From a bacterium (GTDB lineage: Bacteria > Orphanbacterota > Orphanbacteria > Orphanbacterales > Orphanbacteraceae): a stretch of DNA of 64,000 nucleotides. How positions within the stretch are numbered: the first letter of the stretch is position 1; every line of letters begins with the position of its first letter. The notes under the pieces are model-generated. The model did no database searches. It saw only the letters and a program-made list of their open reading frames with translations, and had not been told where the DNA came from. The position numbers and the translations under genes were made by a program. Shown here piece after piece: positions 47,358 to 55,148 of this stretch. The stretch covers positions 1 to 64,000 of the forward strand of contig JALGYY010000028.1 in the NCBI GenBank assembly GCA_025782575.1, in the 5' to 3' direction.

Positions 47358-49790
47358 ATGACGCATCATCATTCAATCGCAATCATTATTATTATTCTGA
47401 GCGCGCTCGTCACCGGATGTGGTGACGATTCCGGAGGGCTGGAGCCCGATACGAGCCCTCAGGCACTCACCGTTACCCCGGTGGCGGGCGCTCCCGGCAC
47501 TCTTCTCGAAATCGAAGGGCTCGATTCCGAGGGGCTCGATCCCTCTTCGCTCTCGATTGAAATCGGGGGACTGCCGGCGCCGGTCACGATCGGAAGCAGC
47601 GGCAATCTACTGAGCGCCGTTCCTCTGTTCTCGGATGACAAGAACAAGCAGACCGTGCCGTCCGAGCCGGTCGACGTGGTCGTCTTTGTGTCCGGTGATG
47701 TCGCGGGCGAGGCGATCGGCGCGGTGCGCGTACTCGAACTGCCGGCGGCCGATGGATCGGCTGAGATCGTATTCGATGAACTCTGTCGGATTGCGGAGAA
47801 GTTGAGTGCCGTTTCGAATCGGCTCTCTCCTGAACCGGGGACGGAAGCGCAGTATACATTTGCCGTCGATGAGGCGCTGACGGAGCTTCTCGAAGGAGAC
47901 GGCGAGCATTCTCTCCGCTCGGCGCTCGATGATCTCGCGTCGAACGATCCCGATGCACTTGCTCTCCTGGACGCTATTTTTTCTTCATCGGGAATGACCG
48001 ATCTCGCTGCCGGATATGGCGATGCGCTGGAGTCCGTGGAAGAGGGTCTGGATGAAGATCCGCCCGGCAAAACCAGCGACGTAAACATCGACGATACTGC
48101 GCTTGCGAAGAAGATGCAGTTCTATACGATCGCCAAGCTTTTCGGCGAGGAGGTTATTCATCCGACCGCCAATACGTTCGCCGAAACATTCGGGACCGCG
48201 GCCGGCGCGGCAGGCCTGATCGTCAACGTTCCCTTCGCCTCGCAGGTGAGCGCGATTGTTGCACTCATCGACTTCGTCACCAACAAGATCGCTATCGGCC
48301 TTCTTCCCGCCAAGCTGACAGGTTTTGAACTGGAGATACCTGTCACCAATCTCTCGCCGGGAGAAGAGGTGAGCGCTCTGCTTCGCATCAAGGCGAAGAA
48401 CGATCCGCCCCCGACGAGTCTCCAGGACATGGTCGGCCTCACGCTCAATCTTCTCGGGGTTGCAGGAGGAGGGCAGGCGGAATCGTTCAAGGAAGTCCTC
48501 GAGAACACGGCGGCATTTTTCCTGGCCACTATGCAGCAAGGGCTTGCCAGCTATTCCGAGCAGAACGAGGGACTCAATCTGGACACCAACCTTTTTACAA
48601 TTGTATCGAACATGGAATGGGAGGCGCTCGTCGACAATCCCAAGCTCGTTGACCTCATCTCCTTTTCCCCTGAAATCGTTTACGCGCTGACCGATGAGGT
48701 CGACTGGAAGACAGCCGACAATCAGATCGGCTCCGCGTCGATCTGGGCGAAGACTGCCGGGAACGACGCGTTTCTGCTGACTCTTCCGCCCGGGTTCATT
48801 TACGGGGCCGGCGCATTCGGTGAGTCTGTCCTCGCCACACCGACGAAGCAGGTGACGGTCTCGTCCGAACTGCTGCTGGAACTCGATTTCGCTCCCACGA
48901 TTGAGGAAACGGGTATCAATGCGCTCGAGGCGCGGGCCGGCTATGAGGGCACGGACGGCAATACCATATGGACGCCCGGCATCGACATTCATCTCAGTCT
49001 TGATGGCGGAACTGCTCAGGAGGAGACCGGCGTTACAGATGAAGACGGTCAGTTCATCACTCTCATCCAGCACCAGATCGGATTTAACCAGGTAATTGTG
49101 TCCGTGACGGCGAGTGACCAGTTCGGGCAGCAGGTAGTCAAGAGCGTAACAGCAACACTCGGTGTGGGTGGGTACGTAACCATCGTGCGGGGTCGGGTTC
49201 AGATGGCCGGGAGCGTATCGATGACCGTGGGTGAATACGGCCCCGGGTACGCTCCCGAAAGCACGAGCGATAACGGTATTGAGGACCATATGATCGAAGA
49301 GCCCGGTAGCCATATCTATTCGATCGCTCTCCAGCGATCGCTCAGCCATGCACCGACGGGCGAAAGCGCGAACGCAAGCACGAACGCCGCTTTCGATCTC
49401 CATATCTCAGAAGGGGGAGGCCCGGGTATGACAATCAACGGGAACGCCGATCTCAGTTCGTCTGCCACCTTTTCCGGGAGCTCTGACGGGGGTGCCGGCG
49501 GGAACTCCAACGTCAATATGTACGTGAACTTCCAGATCCACGACGCGCCGCTCTCTTATGCGTTCACCGGGAGCTTTAACGGGAGCCCCCGGCTTGTCGA
49601 TCTCTTCGGCGAGTTCTATCATGCAACATTGACGGACGGCGAAATACCCGGCTCCGTGACCTTAAGCGGGTCTCTCTCACCTGGCGAGTATCAGTTGCGG
49701 ATCGGTCAGGTTTCGGCGAGCGCAAGCGATCCGGGCGGGTCATCGTCGGCAGAAACAGACTGGAACTTCTCGTTGCAGCTGGGCGAGTGA
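47358..49790 (+). CDS. Secreted lipoprotein with IPT/TIG-like N-terminal domain
   Basis: 810 aa from the ATG at 47358 with GGAGG upstream. The lipoprotein signal is H-S-I-A-I-I-I-I-I-L-S-A-L-V-T-G-C, with the Cys at residue 21. The first ~100 mature residues look like an IPT/TIG fold (L-T-V-T-P-V-A-G-A-P-G-T-L-L-E-I). The rest is long and alternates helices and beta-rich Ser/Gly stretches near the C-terminus (G-S-S-D-G-G-A-G-G-N-S-N-V). No catalytic motif is visible. It is probably on the outer membrane or periplasmic side. It lies downstream of the Cys-rich protein and upstream of the selenoprotein, on the same strand. Confidence 0.75.
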   Translation: MTHHHSIAIIIIILSALVTGCGDDSGGLEPDTSPQALTVTPVAGAPGTLLEIEGLDSEGLDPSSLSIEIGGLPAPVTIGSSGNLLSAVPLFSDDKNKQTVPSEPVDVVVFVSGDVAGEAIGAVRVLELPAADGSAEIVFDELCRIAEKLSAVSNRLSPEPGTEAQYTFAVDEALTELLEGDGEHSLRSALDDLASNDPDALALLDAIFSSSGMTDLAAGYGDALESVEEGLDEDPPGKTSDVNIDDTALAKKMQFYTIAKLFGEEVIHPTANTFAETFGTAAGAAGLIVNVPFASQVSAIVALIDFVTNKIAIGLLPAKLTGFELEIPVTNLSPGEEVSALLRIKAKNDPPPTSLQDMVGLTLNLLGVAGGGQAESFKEVLENTAAFFLATMQQGLASYSEQNEGLNLDTNLFTIVSNMEWEALVDNPKLVDLISFSPEIVYALTDEVDWKTADNQIGSASIWAKTAGNDAFLLTLPPGFIYGAGAFGESVLATPTKQVTVSSELLLELDFAPTIEETGINALEARAGYEGTDGNTIWTPGIDIHLSLDGGTAQEETGVTDEDGQFITLIQHQIGFNQVIVSVTASDQFGQQVVKSVTATLGVGGYVTIVRGRVQMAGSVSMTVGEYGPGYAPESTSDNGIEDHMIEEPGSHIYSIALQRSLSHAPTGESANASTNAAFDLHISEGGGPGMTINGNADLSSSATFSGSSDGGAGGNSNVNMYVNFQIHDAPLSYAFTGSFNGSPRLVDLFGEFYHATLTDGEIPGSVTLSGSLSPGEYQLRIGQVSASASDPGGSSSAETDWNFSLQLGE

Positions 49791-49870
49791 CGTGGGATTC
49801 CGATAGTGATATATTTCGGTGTCGTACCCGGAGTAACCGGATAACCACGCCGAATATCGGGAGTCCGGAA

Positions 49871-51883
49871 TTGAATAGAGAGATTACCGCCCCATCGGTT
49901 TTGCTGTTGCTTCTTCTTGTCGTTGTGATGAGCGCCGGTGGGTGCTTTCGGAATGGAGAGGGTCCGTCGGACGGGAGCGATCGGCCGCCGAACTTTTCCT
50001 GGCTTTACGATCTCGATGAGGCGCGCGAGCTCGCCGCCGCCGAAGACAAACCACTGCTTGTCGTCTTTCGATGTGAGCCGTGAATTGATTGCAGGCTGTT
50101 TGACGGGCAGGTTGTCCGTCCTCCGAAAGAATTCATTGTCGCCGCTGAGAACTATGTGTGTGTGCGGATCACCAACGTCAATGACTACGATCTGAATCTC
50201 TATACGTTTGATTACGATCTCACCATGGCCATTCTTCTCGCCAACGCCGACGGCACGGTCTATCACCGCTATGCCGGTCGCGATGAAGTGTCGCCCATGA
50301 ACATGGAAACGCTGATCGAGGTCATGAACGAGGGGTTGGCGACTCACCTGGCGTATCTGGAAAGACCGGCTCCTCCGGAAGTGCTTCCGCCGCTCAGGGT
50401 GAGCGCCTTGGTTGAAGATTTGCTGAAGGGTCGGTCGAACCCGGTTTACGGATGTTATCACTGTCATTATGTGCGCGAGGCGAAACAGTATCAGGCAGTG
50501 AAGTCGCGCGCCTGGACTCCTGATCGGTTCTGGATCTGGCCGACAACAAAACGACTCGGTCTCGTGATGAATCAGAAGAAGCAGTATCTGGTCGATCGGG
50601 TCATCCCGGAATCGCCCGCCCTGGTGTCGGGAATCAGTGAAGGGGACGAGCTGCAGACTCTTGCCGGCAGGCGAGTCCTGACCAAGTATGACGTTCAGGC
50701 GGTTTTGGAAGAGAGCTCGACGTCAGACACTTCTCTTGGGTTTACCCTGCTGCGGATGGGCAATGTCGTCAGCGGGACACTGGATCTGGCGGACGGTTGG
50801 AAAGTTGGCGATCCGGAAGACTATCGATGGAGAGTGGGGAACGTTTACACGGAGCATATGCGCAGTTTTCTGCCGACTCCCGGTTTTATCGGAAAGATCC
50901 CCACGAGAGAGAAGCTCGATGATTGGGGCCTTGCTGGTGGGAGCTTTGCGCTCGAAGTGAGCCTTCTGAACTATGGCACTCACCTGGCGGGAATCCGTAT
51001 GGGTGACATCATCACAGGGGCGGGCGGCAAGTCGGACTTCCGAAATTCTCGGGATTTCTATCACTGGTGCGAGATGATGCGCCGCTCCAACAGAGACCTG
51101 ACCATGGAGCTGGTAAGACAAGGCTCCCCGATGAAACTGGTGATCAGTTCGAATCACTTGAATTACGCGAACGTCGAAGAGTCGCCTGAGGTGATGCTCG
51201 GTTTCACGCCGCAGGAACTGGGCGGGGGGGGTGGGATGCGTGTCGGGCTAGTTGTCGATGGGAGCAGCGCCGAAAGAGCCGGTCTTAAGCATGGGGATTT
51301 TCTCGATTTCGTGGATGGAGAGAGGCTCGACACGTCAGAAGATATGAAGGGGATTCTCGCCGGGAAAATGCCGGGCGACATGCTGACCGTAAAAGTGCGG
51401 CGCGCCAAAGAAGACCTTCTCTTCGCTTATGTTCTGGTCGACAAAGAGGGGAAGAAGAGTTCGCTTGCGAAGCTGAGCCGAAAAGTGGTGGAGGCGGGGC
51501 AGGAGATCGACTGCGATGTCCTTATCAAGCTACCGGAAAACAAGCATATTTACAGCGTCAACAAAGAGGGTTTCGGCGTGCAGACGCGACTGGATTTCAG
51601 GGGGAGCGGCTACAAGCTTCTCGGGCCGGTAGTTGAGCCCGAGGCCAGAAGGATCGTGCAAGCAGGTTATGAGGATATGTGGGTTCTCGGCGGGGAAGTG
51701 CGCCTGACTCAGAGGATCGAGGTGACCGATGCCGGTAAATTTCGCCTGCTGGTAAGAGCATATGCACAGGTTTGCGACGAACATAACTGTCATGAGTTTC
51801 GGGCGATTGTGGTCAACAAAGGGCTAGGCAAAGATTTCTCGGAGTTCCGCGGCCGCTTCGAATCCGAACCGGAAGTGAATTGA
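49871..51883 (+). CDS. Trx7/PDZ-type selenoprotein lipoprotein (in-frame TGA as Sec)
   Basis: 670 aa when TGA 50081-50083 is read as selenocysteine 71. The TTG at 49871 has GGGAG seven bases upstream and begins a lipoprotein signal (L-L-L-L-L-L-V-V-V-M-S-A-G-G-C). The thioredoxin-like domain reads P-L-L-V-V-F-R-C-E-P-U-I-D-C-R-L-F, so U71 forms a U-x-x-C redox pair with C74. The frame is continuous on both sides of the TGA. Later features are C-Y-H-C-H at 195-199 (a CxxCH heme-c site), three PDZ-like domains, and a C-terminal domain like the DsbD N-terminus with C-D-E-H-N-C. This matches the family known as Trx7/PDZ domain-containing (seleno)protein. A nonsense mutation of TGC/TGT would look similar, but the hairpin at 50102-50120 favours selenocysteine. 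Periplasmic redox function inferred. Confidence 0.82.
50102..50120 (+). promoter_or_regulatory. SECIS-like hairpin downstream of the TGA
   Basis: A 7-base-pair stem (GACGGGC, 50102-50108; GTCCGTC is 50114-50120 read with one G-U pair) closes a five-base loop AGGTT. The loop's GGT resembles the apical loop of the E. coli fdhF SECIS. It begins 18 bases after the TGA and its loop GG lies about 26 bases after it, inside the window expected for bacterial SECIS elements. Confidence 0.75.
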
Positions 51884-51959: not shown

Positions 51960-52625
51960 TTAGATTTTCTTCTTTGGCTTTGGGCCGGGTTTTTGAGGGC
52001 GTAGAGTTCGACGAAGTCGGTCTTCCAGCCGATCGATGAAGTCCTTGTCACCGAGAGGCCTACCGGTTCGAATATGAGATCGGATTTTCTCAACAAGCTC
52101 GTCCTGGTTTCCACCGTGGATGAATTGTTTCCAGTCGGGAACCATCTCCAAAAGGGGCCGGGCTTTGACGAGCGCATCGTCTTGACCTAGCAGGTGCGCT
52201 GTTGCACTACTCCACGGATAGTCTTCCGGTCGCGCGCAGAGACCAGCCTGAACCGGGTTTCGTTCAACATATCTAGCACAGGCGAGTAGATAAGTCTCAT
52301 TCATGGGGAAGGAGGCGAAGCGTCCCTGCCAAAGGTATCCGCGCCAATCTTCTCTAAAGTTAATGAGGCGGGTGTATTTCCGGTGGGCTTCGCCGAAAGC
52401 TTTTCGGAGCGAATCAGGTGTCTCGGGAACGGCGATGTGGTGGGCATGATTGGGCATCAGGCAGTAAGCCCAGATCTCGACTCCTGATCGTTCACACGAT
52501 TCTGCGAGGAGTTCGCGATAGAGGTTGTAATCGCTGGTGCAGAAGAAGGTCTTCTGCTTTCGGTTCCCCCGTTGAGTAATGTGGTGGGGGATATTGGGGA
52601 TGACGGCTCTCGGTATTCGGGGCAT
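51960..52625 (-). mobile_element. REP-associated tyrosine transposase (RAYT, Y1_Tnp family)
   Basis: 221 aa. P-H-H-I-T-Q-R-G-N-R, C-L-M-P-N-H-A-H-H-I (HUH-type metal motif H-x-H), W-Q-G-R-F-A-S-F and the likely nucleophile region A-R-Y-V-E-R-N-P are the signatures of the IS200-like single-strand transposases associated with REP sequences. The basic tail K-P-G-P-K-P-K-K-K-I is common. GTATTGTGTCCCC-type REPs flank the gene on both sides (51896-51920 and 52808-52921), so it probably acts on them. It is not an IS element with its own left and right ends; in this family the enzyme is domesticated to process REPs. Confidence 0.92.
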
Positions 52626-52922: not shown

Positions 52923-55148
52923 TTATCGAGACAATCCGATTTTTTCGAGGAATAGCGGCCAGCGTGGGTCGGAATGTAGATTCGCGAGAAGAGGGTGCAC
53001 GGCCGTTAGCGGAACTCCCGCATCATGTAACTCGACAGATCTGTTCAGCCATTCGAACGCTTTGTCGTTTTCTTTTCGTGTCGAATAGACCGCGGCGAAC
53101 TGATACGCCCACTCATTTCCGGCTGTGAGCAGGATTTCAAGTGCGCGGTCCGCCTCTTCCGTGTTGCCAAGGAGGTGGTGTGCAATCGCAATCCCGCAAT
53201 CTCTGTATCCAGCAGACTCTTCTTTCTGTGCCATTGACAATGCTTCGTCGAGCTTTCCTTGAGACTGATAGATCCAGCTCAGGATCAGATGAGCGCTTGT
53301 AATGCCGGGGCTGAGTTCAAGGGCGTGCTGTATTGAGGAGGCAGCTTCATCGAGATGAGTCGCCCAATATGAGATTCTTCCACGGTGGAGAAACGCTTCC
53401 GGGTCGAGAGGGTCGAGCTCCGTCGCCCGCTTAGCCAAATCAATCGCTTCGTCAAAATTTCCCATGACGCCTTCATAGATGGCTACGCCGGTTAATATTC
53501 GACTGTTGTTCGGTGCTAGAGCCCGTGCTAGTCGAAAGGCAATCCCCGCTTCCTCGAACTGATATTCAATCGCGATATTGATCATGCCGAGAATGGTGTA
53601 CGCCTCCGCCAGTTCACTGTCGAGCTCCAGCGCCTGGTGGGCTGATTCTTTCGCCTGGCGGATTGCGGCGGCAACATCGGCATGGCCATAGAAGGACTGG
53701 TTCAAATGGGCCCGCGCCTTGCCCGCCCACGCGGGTGCATTGTTCTGATCCAGGGCGATTGCCTTGTCGTACAATTCCGCTGCGGCGGCAAGCCCCGACT
53801 TGCTCATCTGGTTGGCCCATTGATTGGCGCGGAGCACGAGAGCATAACTTTCAGGAACGCTTGTCTGAACTGATGCCGATTTTCCGAGCAAAGTGACGTT
53901 CATGGCGGCCGCCACCGCCTGGGCGATATCGTCCTGTACGGCAAAGATATCTTCCAGCACGCGATCATACGTTTCCGACCAGAGATGAAAGCCATCATCT
54001 GTATTGACAAGCTGAGCGGTAATACGGAGGCGGTTCCCCGCTTTCCGAACACTCCCTTCCAACAGAGTGCCGACACCCAGCTTCTTCCCGATCTCGCGCA
54101 AATCCTCCTGCTTTCCCTTGAACGCAAACGAGGAGGTGCGTCCCGTGACTTTCAGTTCCGGATTCCGGGCGAGGACGTTCAGTAGTTCTTCGGTCAGGCC
54201 GTCGGCGAAGTACTCGTTTTCAGGGTCCGCGCTCATGTTCGTAAATGGGAGAACGGCGATGGATGGCTGTGATGCTGATCCCGCGCCGGCGGACTTGCGC
54301 CCCGCCTGCCGGAGGTCGGCGATCAGATCAGCCGCCGATTGGTAACGCTCTTCCGGTTGCTTCGAAAGGCACTTGGATACAATACGCTGGAGCTCGGAAG
54401 GAACATCGGCTTTGTATCGCGCCAAGGGTTCCGGTTCGTCCGAGGTGATGGCATGCAATGTCGCGGGGATGTTATCACGTTGGAACGGTGTGCGTCCGCA
54501 GATCAGCTCGTAGAGGACAGCGCCGAGTGAGAAAAGGTCTGATCGATGATCGGCTTCGATACCTTGCGCCTGTTCGGGCGACATGTAGGGGGCGGTACCG
54601 AGAGTGGATCCCGCCTGGGTGAGCATCTCGCCCCCTTGAACGGCCGCGAGTCCAAAGTCCAGAATGACAGGGCGGAACTCGCTATCGACCATGATGTTCG
54701 CCGACTTGATATCACGATGAACAATGCCCTCCGCGTGAGCATGAGCGAGACCCTCCGCGATCTGCACGGTGAGACCGATGATCTTGGGGATGGGGAGAGG
54801 CTCTTCGTTGCAATAGTGCCGGAGCGTTCGTCCCTCGACATATCGCATGGCAATAAATGGCCGGTCATTATGTTCGCTCACATCGTAGATGGTGACGATA
54901 TGGGGATGGTGGAGGCGGGCCGCGGCTTGTGCTTCGCGTCTGAATCGGGCGCGAATGTCTTTGTCGGCAGCCATGTGGGCGGGCAGGAACTTGAGTGCTA
55001 CCTGGCGACCTAGCCTGGAGTCTTCCGCCAGATAGACCTCGCCCATTCCCCCGGCGCCGATTTTGCGGACGATCCGATAGTGGGAAACTTCGGTTCCCGG
55101 GGAGAGTACGGTGTGGCTTATTGTTTTGTCGTTGTCGTCTTCTGTCAT
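52923..55148 (-). CDS. Eukaryotic-type Ser/Thr protein kinase with TolB-like and TPR modules
   Basis: 741 aa. The kinase domain has K-I-G-A-G-G-M-G-E-V-Y-L near 29-40, V-A-L-K-F-L, H-R-D-I-K-S-A-N and D-F-G-L-A, then P-Y-M-S-P-E-Q. After about 290 residues comes a FlgO/TolB-like segment (I-A-V-L-P-F-T-N-M-S-A-D-P, L-L-E-G-S-V-R-K-A-G-N-R-L-R-I-T-A-Q-L) as in many adenylate-cyclase/kinase receptor fusions. The rest is a row of TPR units (A-x3-G-R-I-S-Y-W-A, A-L-E-L-S-P-G). No membrane helix is visible, unlike the kinase at 36127. It follows the lipoprotein gene by 13 bases. Upstream signal unknown; likely a cytosolic regulator. Confidence 0.9.
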   Translation of the reverse strand: MTEDDNDKTISHTVLSPGTEVSHYRIVRKIGAGGMGEVYLAEDSRLGRQVALKFLPAHMAADKDIRARFRREAQAAARLHHPHIVTIYDVSEHNDRPFIAMRYVEGRTLRHYCNEEPLPIPKIIGLTVQIAEGLAHAHAEGIVHRDIKSANIMVDSEFRPVILDFGLAAVQGGEMLTQAGSTLGTAPYMSPEQAQGIEADHRSDLFSLGAVLYELICGRTPFQRDNIPATLHAITSDEPEPLARYKADVPSELQRIVSKCLSKQPEERYQSAADLIADLRQAGRKSAGAGSASQPSIAVLPFTNMSADPENEYFADGLTEELLNVLARNPELKVTGRTSSFAFKGKQEDLREIGKKLGVGTLLEGSVRKAGNRLRITAQLVNTDDGFHLWSETYDRVLEDIFAVQDDIAQAVAAAMNVTLLGKSASVQTSVPESYALVLRANQWANQMSKSGLAAAAELYDKAIALDQNNAPAWAGKARAHLNQSFYGHADVAAAIRQAKESAHQALELDSELAEAYTILGMINIAIEYQFEEAGIAFRLARALAPNNSRILTGVAIYEGVMGNFDEAIDLAKRATELDPLDPEAFLHRGRISYWATHLDEAASSIQHALELSPGITSAHLILSWIYQSQGKLDEALSMAQKEESAGYRDCGIAIAHHLLGNTEEADRALEILLTAGNEWAYQFAAVYSTRKENDKAFEWLNRSVELHDAGVPLTAVHPLLANLHSDPRWPLFLEKIGLSR

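Follow-up and report, generated by a model that had tools for sequence, protein, structure and literature searches.

The main finding of this study is that a gene of 670 codons, located at positions 49871 to 51883 on the plus strand of the 64,000-nucleotide window analysed here, almost certainly reads an in-frame TGA (50081-50083) as selenocysteine, as judged from sequence comparison, and that this gene is an additional member of the already catalogued Trx7/PDZ (seleno)protein family. We estimate a probability of about 0.96 for the joint reading, in which selenocysteine is inserted via a downstream hairpin into an exported Trx7/PDZ oxidoreductase. This reading builds on the open frame, the homology, a conserved TGA/Cys column, a covarying hairpin and the selenocysteine machinery of the source genome. 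The window lies on contig C5 of a draft assembly of 49 contigs (genome G000). The TGA at 50081-50083 is the sole internal stop of a frame that runs from a TTG at 49871 to a TGA at 51881-51883. The TTG is likely to be the start codon, given a GGAG (49860-49863) located 7 nt upstream of it, and an alternative in-frame start, GTG, is present at 49787. When the internal TGA is read through, the surrounding peptide is KPLLVVFRCEPUIDCRLFDGQVV. Under translation table 11 the gene instead breaks into two open reading frames, the first ending at 50083 and the second restarting at 50156, so the case shows how the standard code splits selenoprotein genes. The original prediction that the frame continues unbroken on both sides of the TGA for more than 600 codons, and that gene callers would divide it in two, is borne out in both parts, and all the coordinates it gave for the TGA, the stem, the loop and the spacing are accurate.

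The selenocysteine assigned to this codon, Sec71, is the second redox residue of a thioredoxin CxxC motif, here C68-E-P-U71 (50072-50083). A scan of GTDB species genomes identifies the closest homologue in the Planctomycetota MAG OFTM357, which shares 56-59% identity with the protein and is represented by two loci of the same sequence, L022 and L094. This separate record carries a TGA at the same codon, followed by an identical hairpin, with the local peptide FRCEPUIDN. Searches in three other phyla, one of them that of this homologue, extend the set to more than 100 members, of which 111 distinct sequences are aligned. All 111 have Cys or Sec, and no other residue, at both positions of the motif, although these homologues were chosen by a Cys/Sec motif pattern, which missed 6 of about 125 loci that were left out. 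Within the alignment the in-frame TGA falls opposite the Cys of 26 distinct CxxC homologues. The motif had originally been described as C-E-P-U-I-D-C; the Cys and Sec of CxxU are indeed kept, but the last Cys is found in 102 of the 111 sequences and is replaced by Asn in L022. Because this last Cys is not strictly conserved, we consider the redox pair to be CxxU. These comparisons also bear on two other explanations for the TGA. One is a sequencing or assembly error at an ordinary Cys codon, to which a draft assembly of 49 contigs would be open; however, the TGA occurs in independent assemblies and is accompanied by a hairpin that is absent from the Cys homologues, which makes such an error highly improbable. 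The other is that TGA encodes a different amino acid genome-wide, as it does in codes 4 or 25, with Trp or Gly as examples. The frame is open when TGA is read through, as this explanation would have it, but the TGA column pairs with Cys rather than with Trp or Gly, and, of the six long genes in this neighbourhood, two end in TGA, leaving genome-wide recoding with a vanishingly small probability. The two genes are the selenoprotein gene itself and its upstream neighbour, so TGA normally acts as a stop in this genome and its recoding is local.

The second line of evidence comes from the hairpin that follows the TGA. As the original prediction stated, a 7-bp stem with an AGGTT loop begins 18 nt past the TGA (50102-50120, plus strand). 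The arms GACGGGC (50102-50108) and GTCCGTC (50114-50120) form seven pairs, one of them G-U, and enclose the loop at 50109-50113. Both its position shortly after the UGA and the presence of G in the loop are as expected of a bacterial SECIS. Taken as a single sequence, the hairpin is weak evidence and becomes persuasive only through comparison. Its fold is ordinary against dinucleotide shuffles (z from 0.29 to -0.6), and a perfect stem of 7/7 pairs arises by chance with P=0.016 when synonymous codons are drawn from the gene's own usage. A search with Rfam at the gathering score gives no match in the window. The SECIS stem of E. coli fdhF has a bulged U; no bulged U is evident in the stem described here. 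The comparison across homologues, in contrast, backs a bacterial SECIS. In an ungapped stem alignment counted from the TGA, with standard pairs scored as paired, 88.9% of stem cells are paired in the 85 distinct Sec homologues, versus 25.8% at the same columns in the 26 Cys homologues. Sliding one arm by 1-3 nt lowers the pairing in the Sec homologues to 26-48%, and the mean MFE is -10.8 kcal/mol in the Sec homologues versus -2.7 kcal/mol in the Cys homologues. The loop AGGTT is found in 52 of the 85 Sec sequences. The stem also shows repeated compensatory changes. Pair 5, for instance, occurs as G-C in 43 sequences, A-U in 17, C-G in 13 and U-A in 3, and mapping on the protein tree gives about 17-18 changes for either side of the pair. 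When whole 3' arms are dealt among the sequences in 1000 trials, the mean pairing is 80.1% and the maximum 82.5%, and some of the excess of the observed pairing over this shuffle reflects relatedness among the sequences. Neither the contrast with the Cys homologues nor the recurrence of compensatory changes depends on this shuffle. The family supplies 85 distinct SECIS elements, all at the same position, alongside Cys counterparts that lack the hairpin, and offers a good training set for models of bacterial SECIS elements.

The source genome encodes the complete machinery for selenocysteine, which the original prediction had asked for in the same genome. Profile searches detect selA (524.6 bits), selB (378.6 bits) and selD (379.1 bits), together with a tRNA-Sec (72.7 bits) whose anticodon is TCA, and selA also occurs in four of the phylum's six remaining genomes. 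Across the family, selA lies above the cut-off in 21 of 24 genomes with a Sec form versus 5 of 30 in which just the Cys form was found (Fisher P=2.5e-7), a comparison over 54 genomes that leaves out G198, is uncorrected for shared ancestry and includes many Cys genomes from just two families. The selD gene of the source genome has an in-frame TGA of its own near the N-terminus (L011, 1531-1533, contig C46 of G000; FATKAGUAAKHP), followed by a strong hairpin; on the basis of this pattern, selD is likely to be a second selenoprotein of the genome. Together, the TGA/Cys column, the covarying hairpin and the sel genes uphold the proposal of a probable selenoprotein that makes use of selenium. The same evidence bears on the possibility that the gene is a pseudogene, in which an active-site TGC or TGT has mutated to a stop and the hairpin is coincidental. 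The ordinary single-sequence fold, a transposase adjoining the gene and the presence of relatives without the gene would all fit decay. However, the 670 codons contain a single internal stop, the TGA and the hairpin are shared with a homologue of 56-59% identity and occur in 85 distinct sequences in total, the stem covaries and the set of sel genes is complete. We consider a pseudogene very unlikely and dropped this explanation, since a conserved TGA with a covarying hairpin speaks decisively against it. The reading as a selenoprotein gene adds a well-supported case to a sparsely sampled phylum, represented here by seven genomes.

The protein also has the layout expected of the family. Its translation begins with a predicted lipoprotein signal peptide (49871-49945), consisting of a hydrophobic run and a lipobox-like SAGG-C25, followed by a Thioredoxin_7 domain (PF13899; 50000-50212; 41.9 bits, cut-off 27). 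A first PDZ-like domain at 50543-50767 is assigned by an HtrA-family profile match over residues 253-327 of the translation P0001 and by tandem-PDZ fold matches, a second at 50933-51145 by a DegQ alignment over P0001 residues 383-544, and a third PDZ domain (PF13180) at 51197-51421 scores 53.6 bits (cut-off 27). The family model NF041199, Trx7/PDZ domain-containing (seleno)protein, matches with 324.7 bits on the protein and 300.1 bits in the genome search, against a cut-off of 300. The order of the domains is that of NF041199, Thioredoxin_7 and then PDZ, both above their Pfam cut-offs, and the CxxU motif with a SECIS just downstream is likewise shared. The match to the model stops at P0001 residue 453, however, and the protein runs about 245 residues beyond it, over the third PDZ domain and a C-terminal domain with a Cys pair. 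In an AlphaFold model C68 and U71 sit between a strand (62-67) and a helix (72-82), which is where thioredoxins usually have their active site. Because confidence in this model is no more than moderate (mean pLDDT 67.8, pTM 0.44, 12 sequences), whole-chain fold matches are taken as support for the PDZ and thioredoxin folds only. The tandem PDZ domains are held in common with HtrA/DegP/MucD serine proteases, but the protein here has an N-terminal thioredoxin domain in place of the protease domain, and a Pfam scan of the protein gives no trypsin-like protease domain. The thioredoxin region has weak similarity to the VPGUxxT-family models NF041382 and NF041383, far under their cut-offs (20.2 versus 275 and 16.6 versus 350). 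That a Trx7/PDZ selenoprotein family exists and that the gene fits its layout are both confirmed by the NF041199 score and by the literature. The first report of the family, in 2008, drew on Global Ocean Sampling and labelled the CxxU protein a 'putative secreted serine protease MucD' (PMC2398784), and a 2026 review names NF041199 with CxxU and one Sec (PMC13188914). As far as the citation given in the review goes, the two entries describe the same family, and the gene is therefore a new member of a family that these sources already catalogue.

Sequence comparison within the family reveals a further pattern at the redox motif. Most Sec homologues have two in-frame TGA codons nine bases apart, giving UxxU in place of CxxU (L060-L078, L107, L111, L113, L117, L134-L193). 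Counted by locus, 65 have UxxU, 27 CxxU and 27 CxxC. This differs from the family entry of the review, which describes CxxU with one Sec only (PMC13188914). A single hairpin apparently serves both TGA codons of the UxxU homologues. On the tree, about 17 switches between the two residues fall at the first position and about 4 at the second. With the first position often exchanging Cys and Sec while the second is mostly Sec, the value of the second selenium is directly testable. In several genomes (G406, G200, G199, G622 and G457) the family is present in two to five copies, and Cys and Sec forms occur together in some of them, such as G406 and G200.

Two features outside the thioredoxin and PDZ domains may be relevant to function. 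The C-terminal domain (51494-51790, plus strand, in the C-terminal stretch 51401-51880) is all-beta, with strands in the AlphaFold model, and contains a Cys pair, C-x4-C (51773-51775 and 51788-51790), that is kept in L022. It is weakly similar to DsbD_N (PF11412; E=0.041, 14.4 against a cut-off of 25, and so below it), and comparison with PDB sequences gives no convincing match. Among the loci seen, the third PDZ domain together with this C-terminal domain occurs elsewhere only in L022/L094. The Trx-like fold resembles PDB 3f9u, a domain of an exported cytochrome c biogenesis-related protein (TMt 0.60), and no DsbD membrane domain is present among the Pfam matches of the protein. The second feature is a CxxCH motif, C195-Y-H-C198-H199 (50453-50467), present in 110 of 111 homologues, the available sequence of the remaining one ending before the motif. 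A Pfam search of this stretch gives no cytochrome match and no domain covering the motif; the motif itself makes a covalent haem-c site possible. The predominance of UxxU, the invariant CxxCH and the long C-terminal form go beyond the two published entries as these describe the family, and may be recorded elsewhere.

A working model can be proposed from these features. If the gene is expressed, SelB with Sec-tRNA(Sec) would bind the hairpin 18 nt past the UGA at 50081, selenocysteine would be incorporated at the second redox position of the CxxU active site, and the UGA at 51881 would be read as an ordinary stop. The product would be a thioredoxin-like oxidoreductase that carries three PDZ domains and is exported and probably held by a lipid anchor. 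The CxxU pair would most likely carry out thiol/selenol-disulfide exchange, with envelope proteins held by the PDZ domains as the presumed substrates. As for the electron donor, the CxxCH motif hints at haem and the Cys pair near the C-terminus at a DsbD-like relay. More tentatively, we speculate that members of the family may act as haem-coupled selenothiol oxidoreductases, in which electrons would pass between CxxU or UxxU and a haem at the invariant CxxCH while the PDZ domains hold the substrate, and in which, among UxxU members, one hairpin would serve a pair of UGA codons separated by 9 nt, the first UGA having been gained or lost many times. We regard this fuller scheme as rather unlikely to hold in all its parts.

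The distribution of the gene bears on its history. The phylum's six other genomes lack the gene, and a search of PLSDB plasmids finds no homologue. In the protein tree its nearest neighbour is L022, with Planctomycetota sequences around the two, and its G+C content of 55.7% is close to the 56.1% of the window. Judged by this placement and composition, the gene was most likely acquired from a Planctomycetota-like donor at a time remote enough for it to have blended in; loss from the other genomes of the phylum is the alternative and is not favoured over acquisition. Directly downstream of the selenoprotein gene, an IS200-like (Y1_Tnp) transposase occupies 51960-52625 on the minus strand, and a serine/threonine protein kinase fused to TPR repeats is located at 52923-55148 on the same strand.
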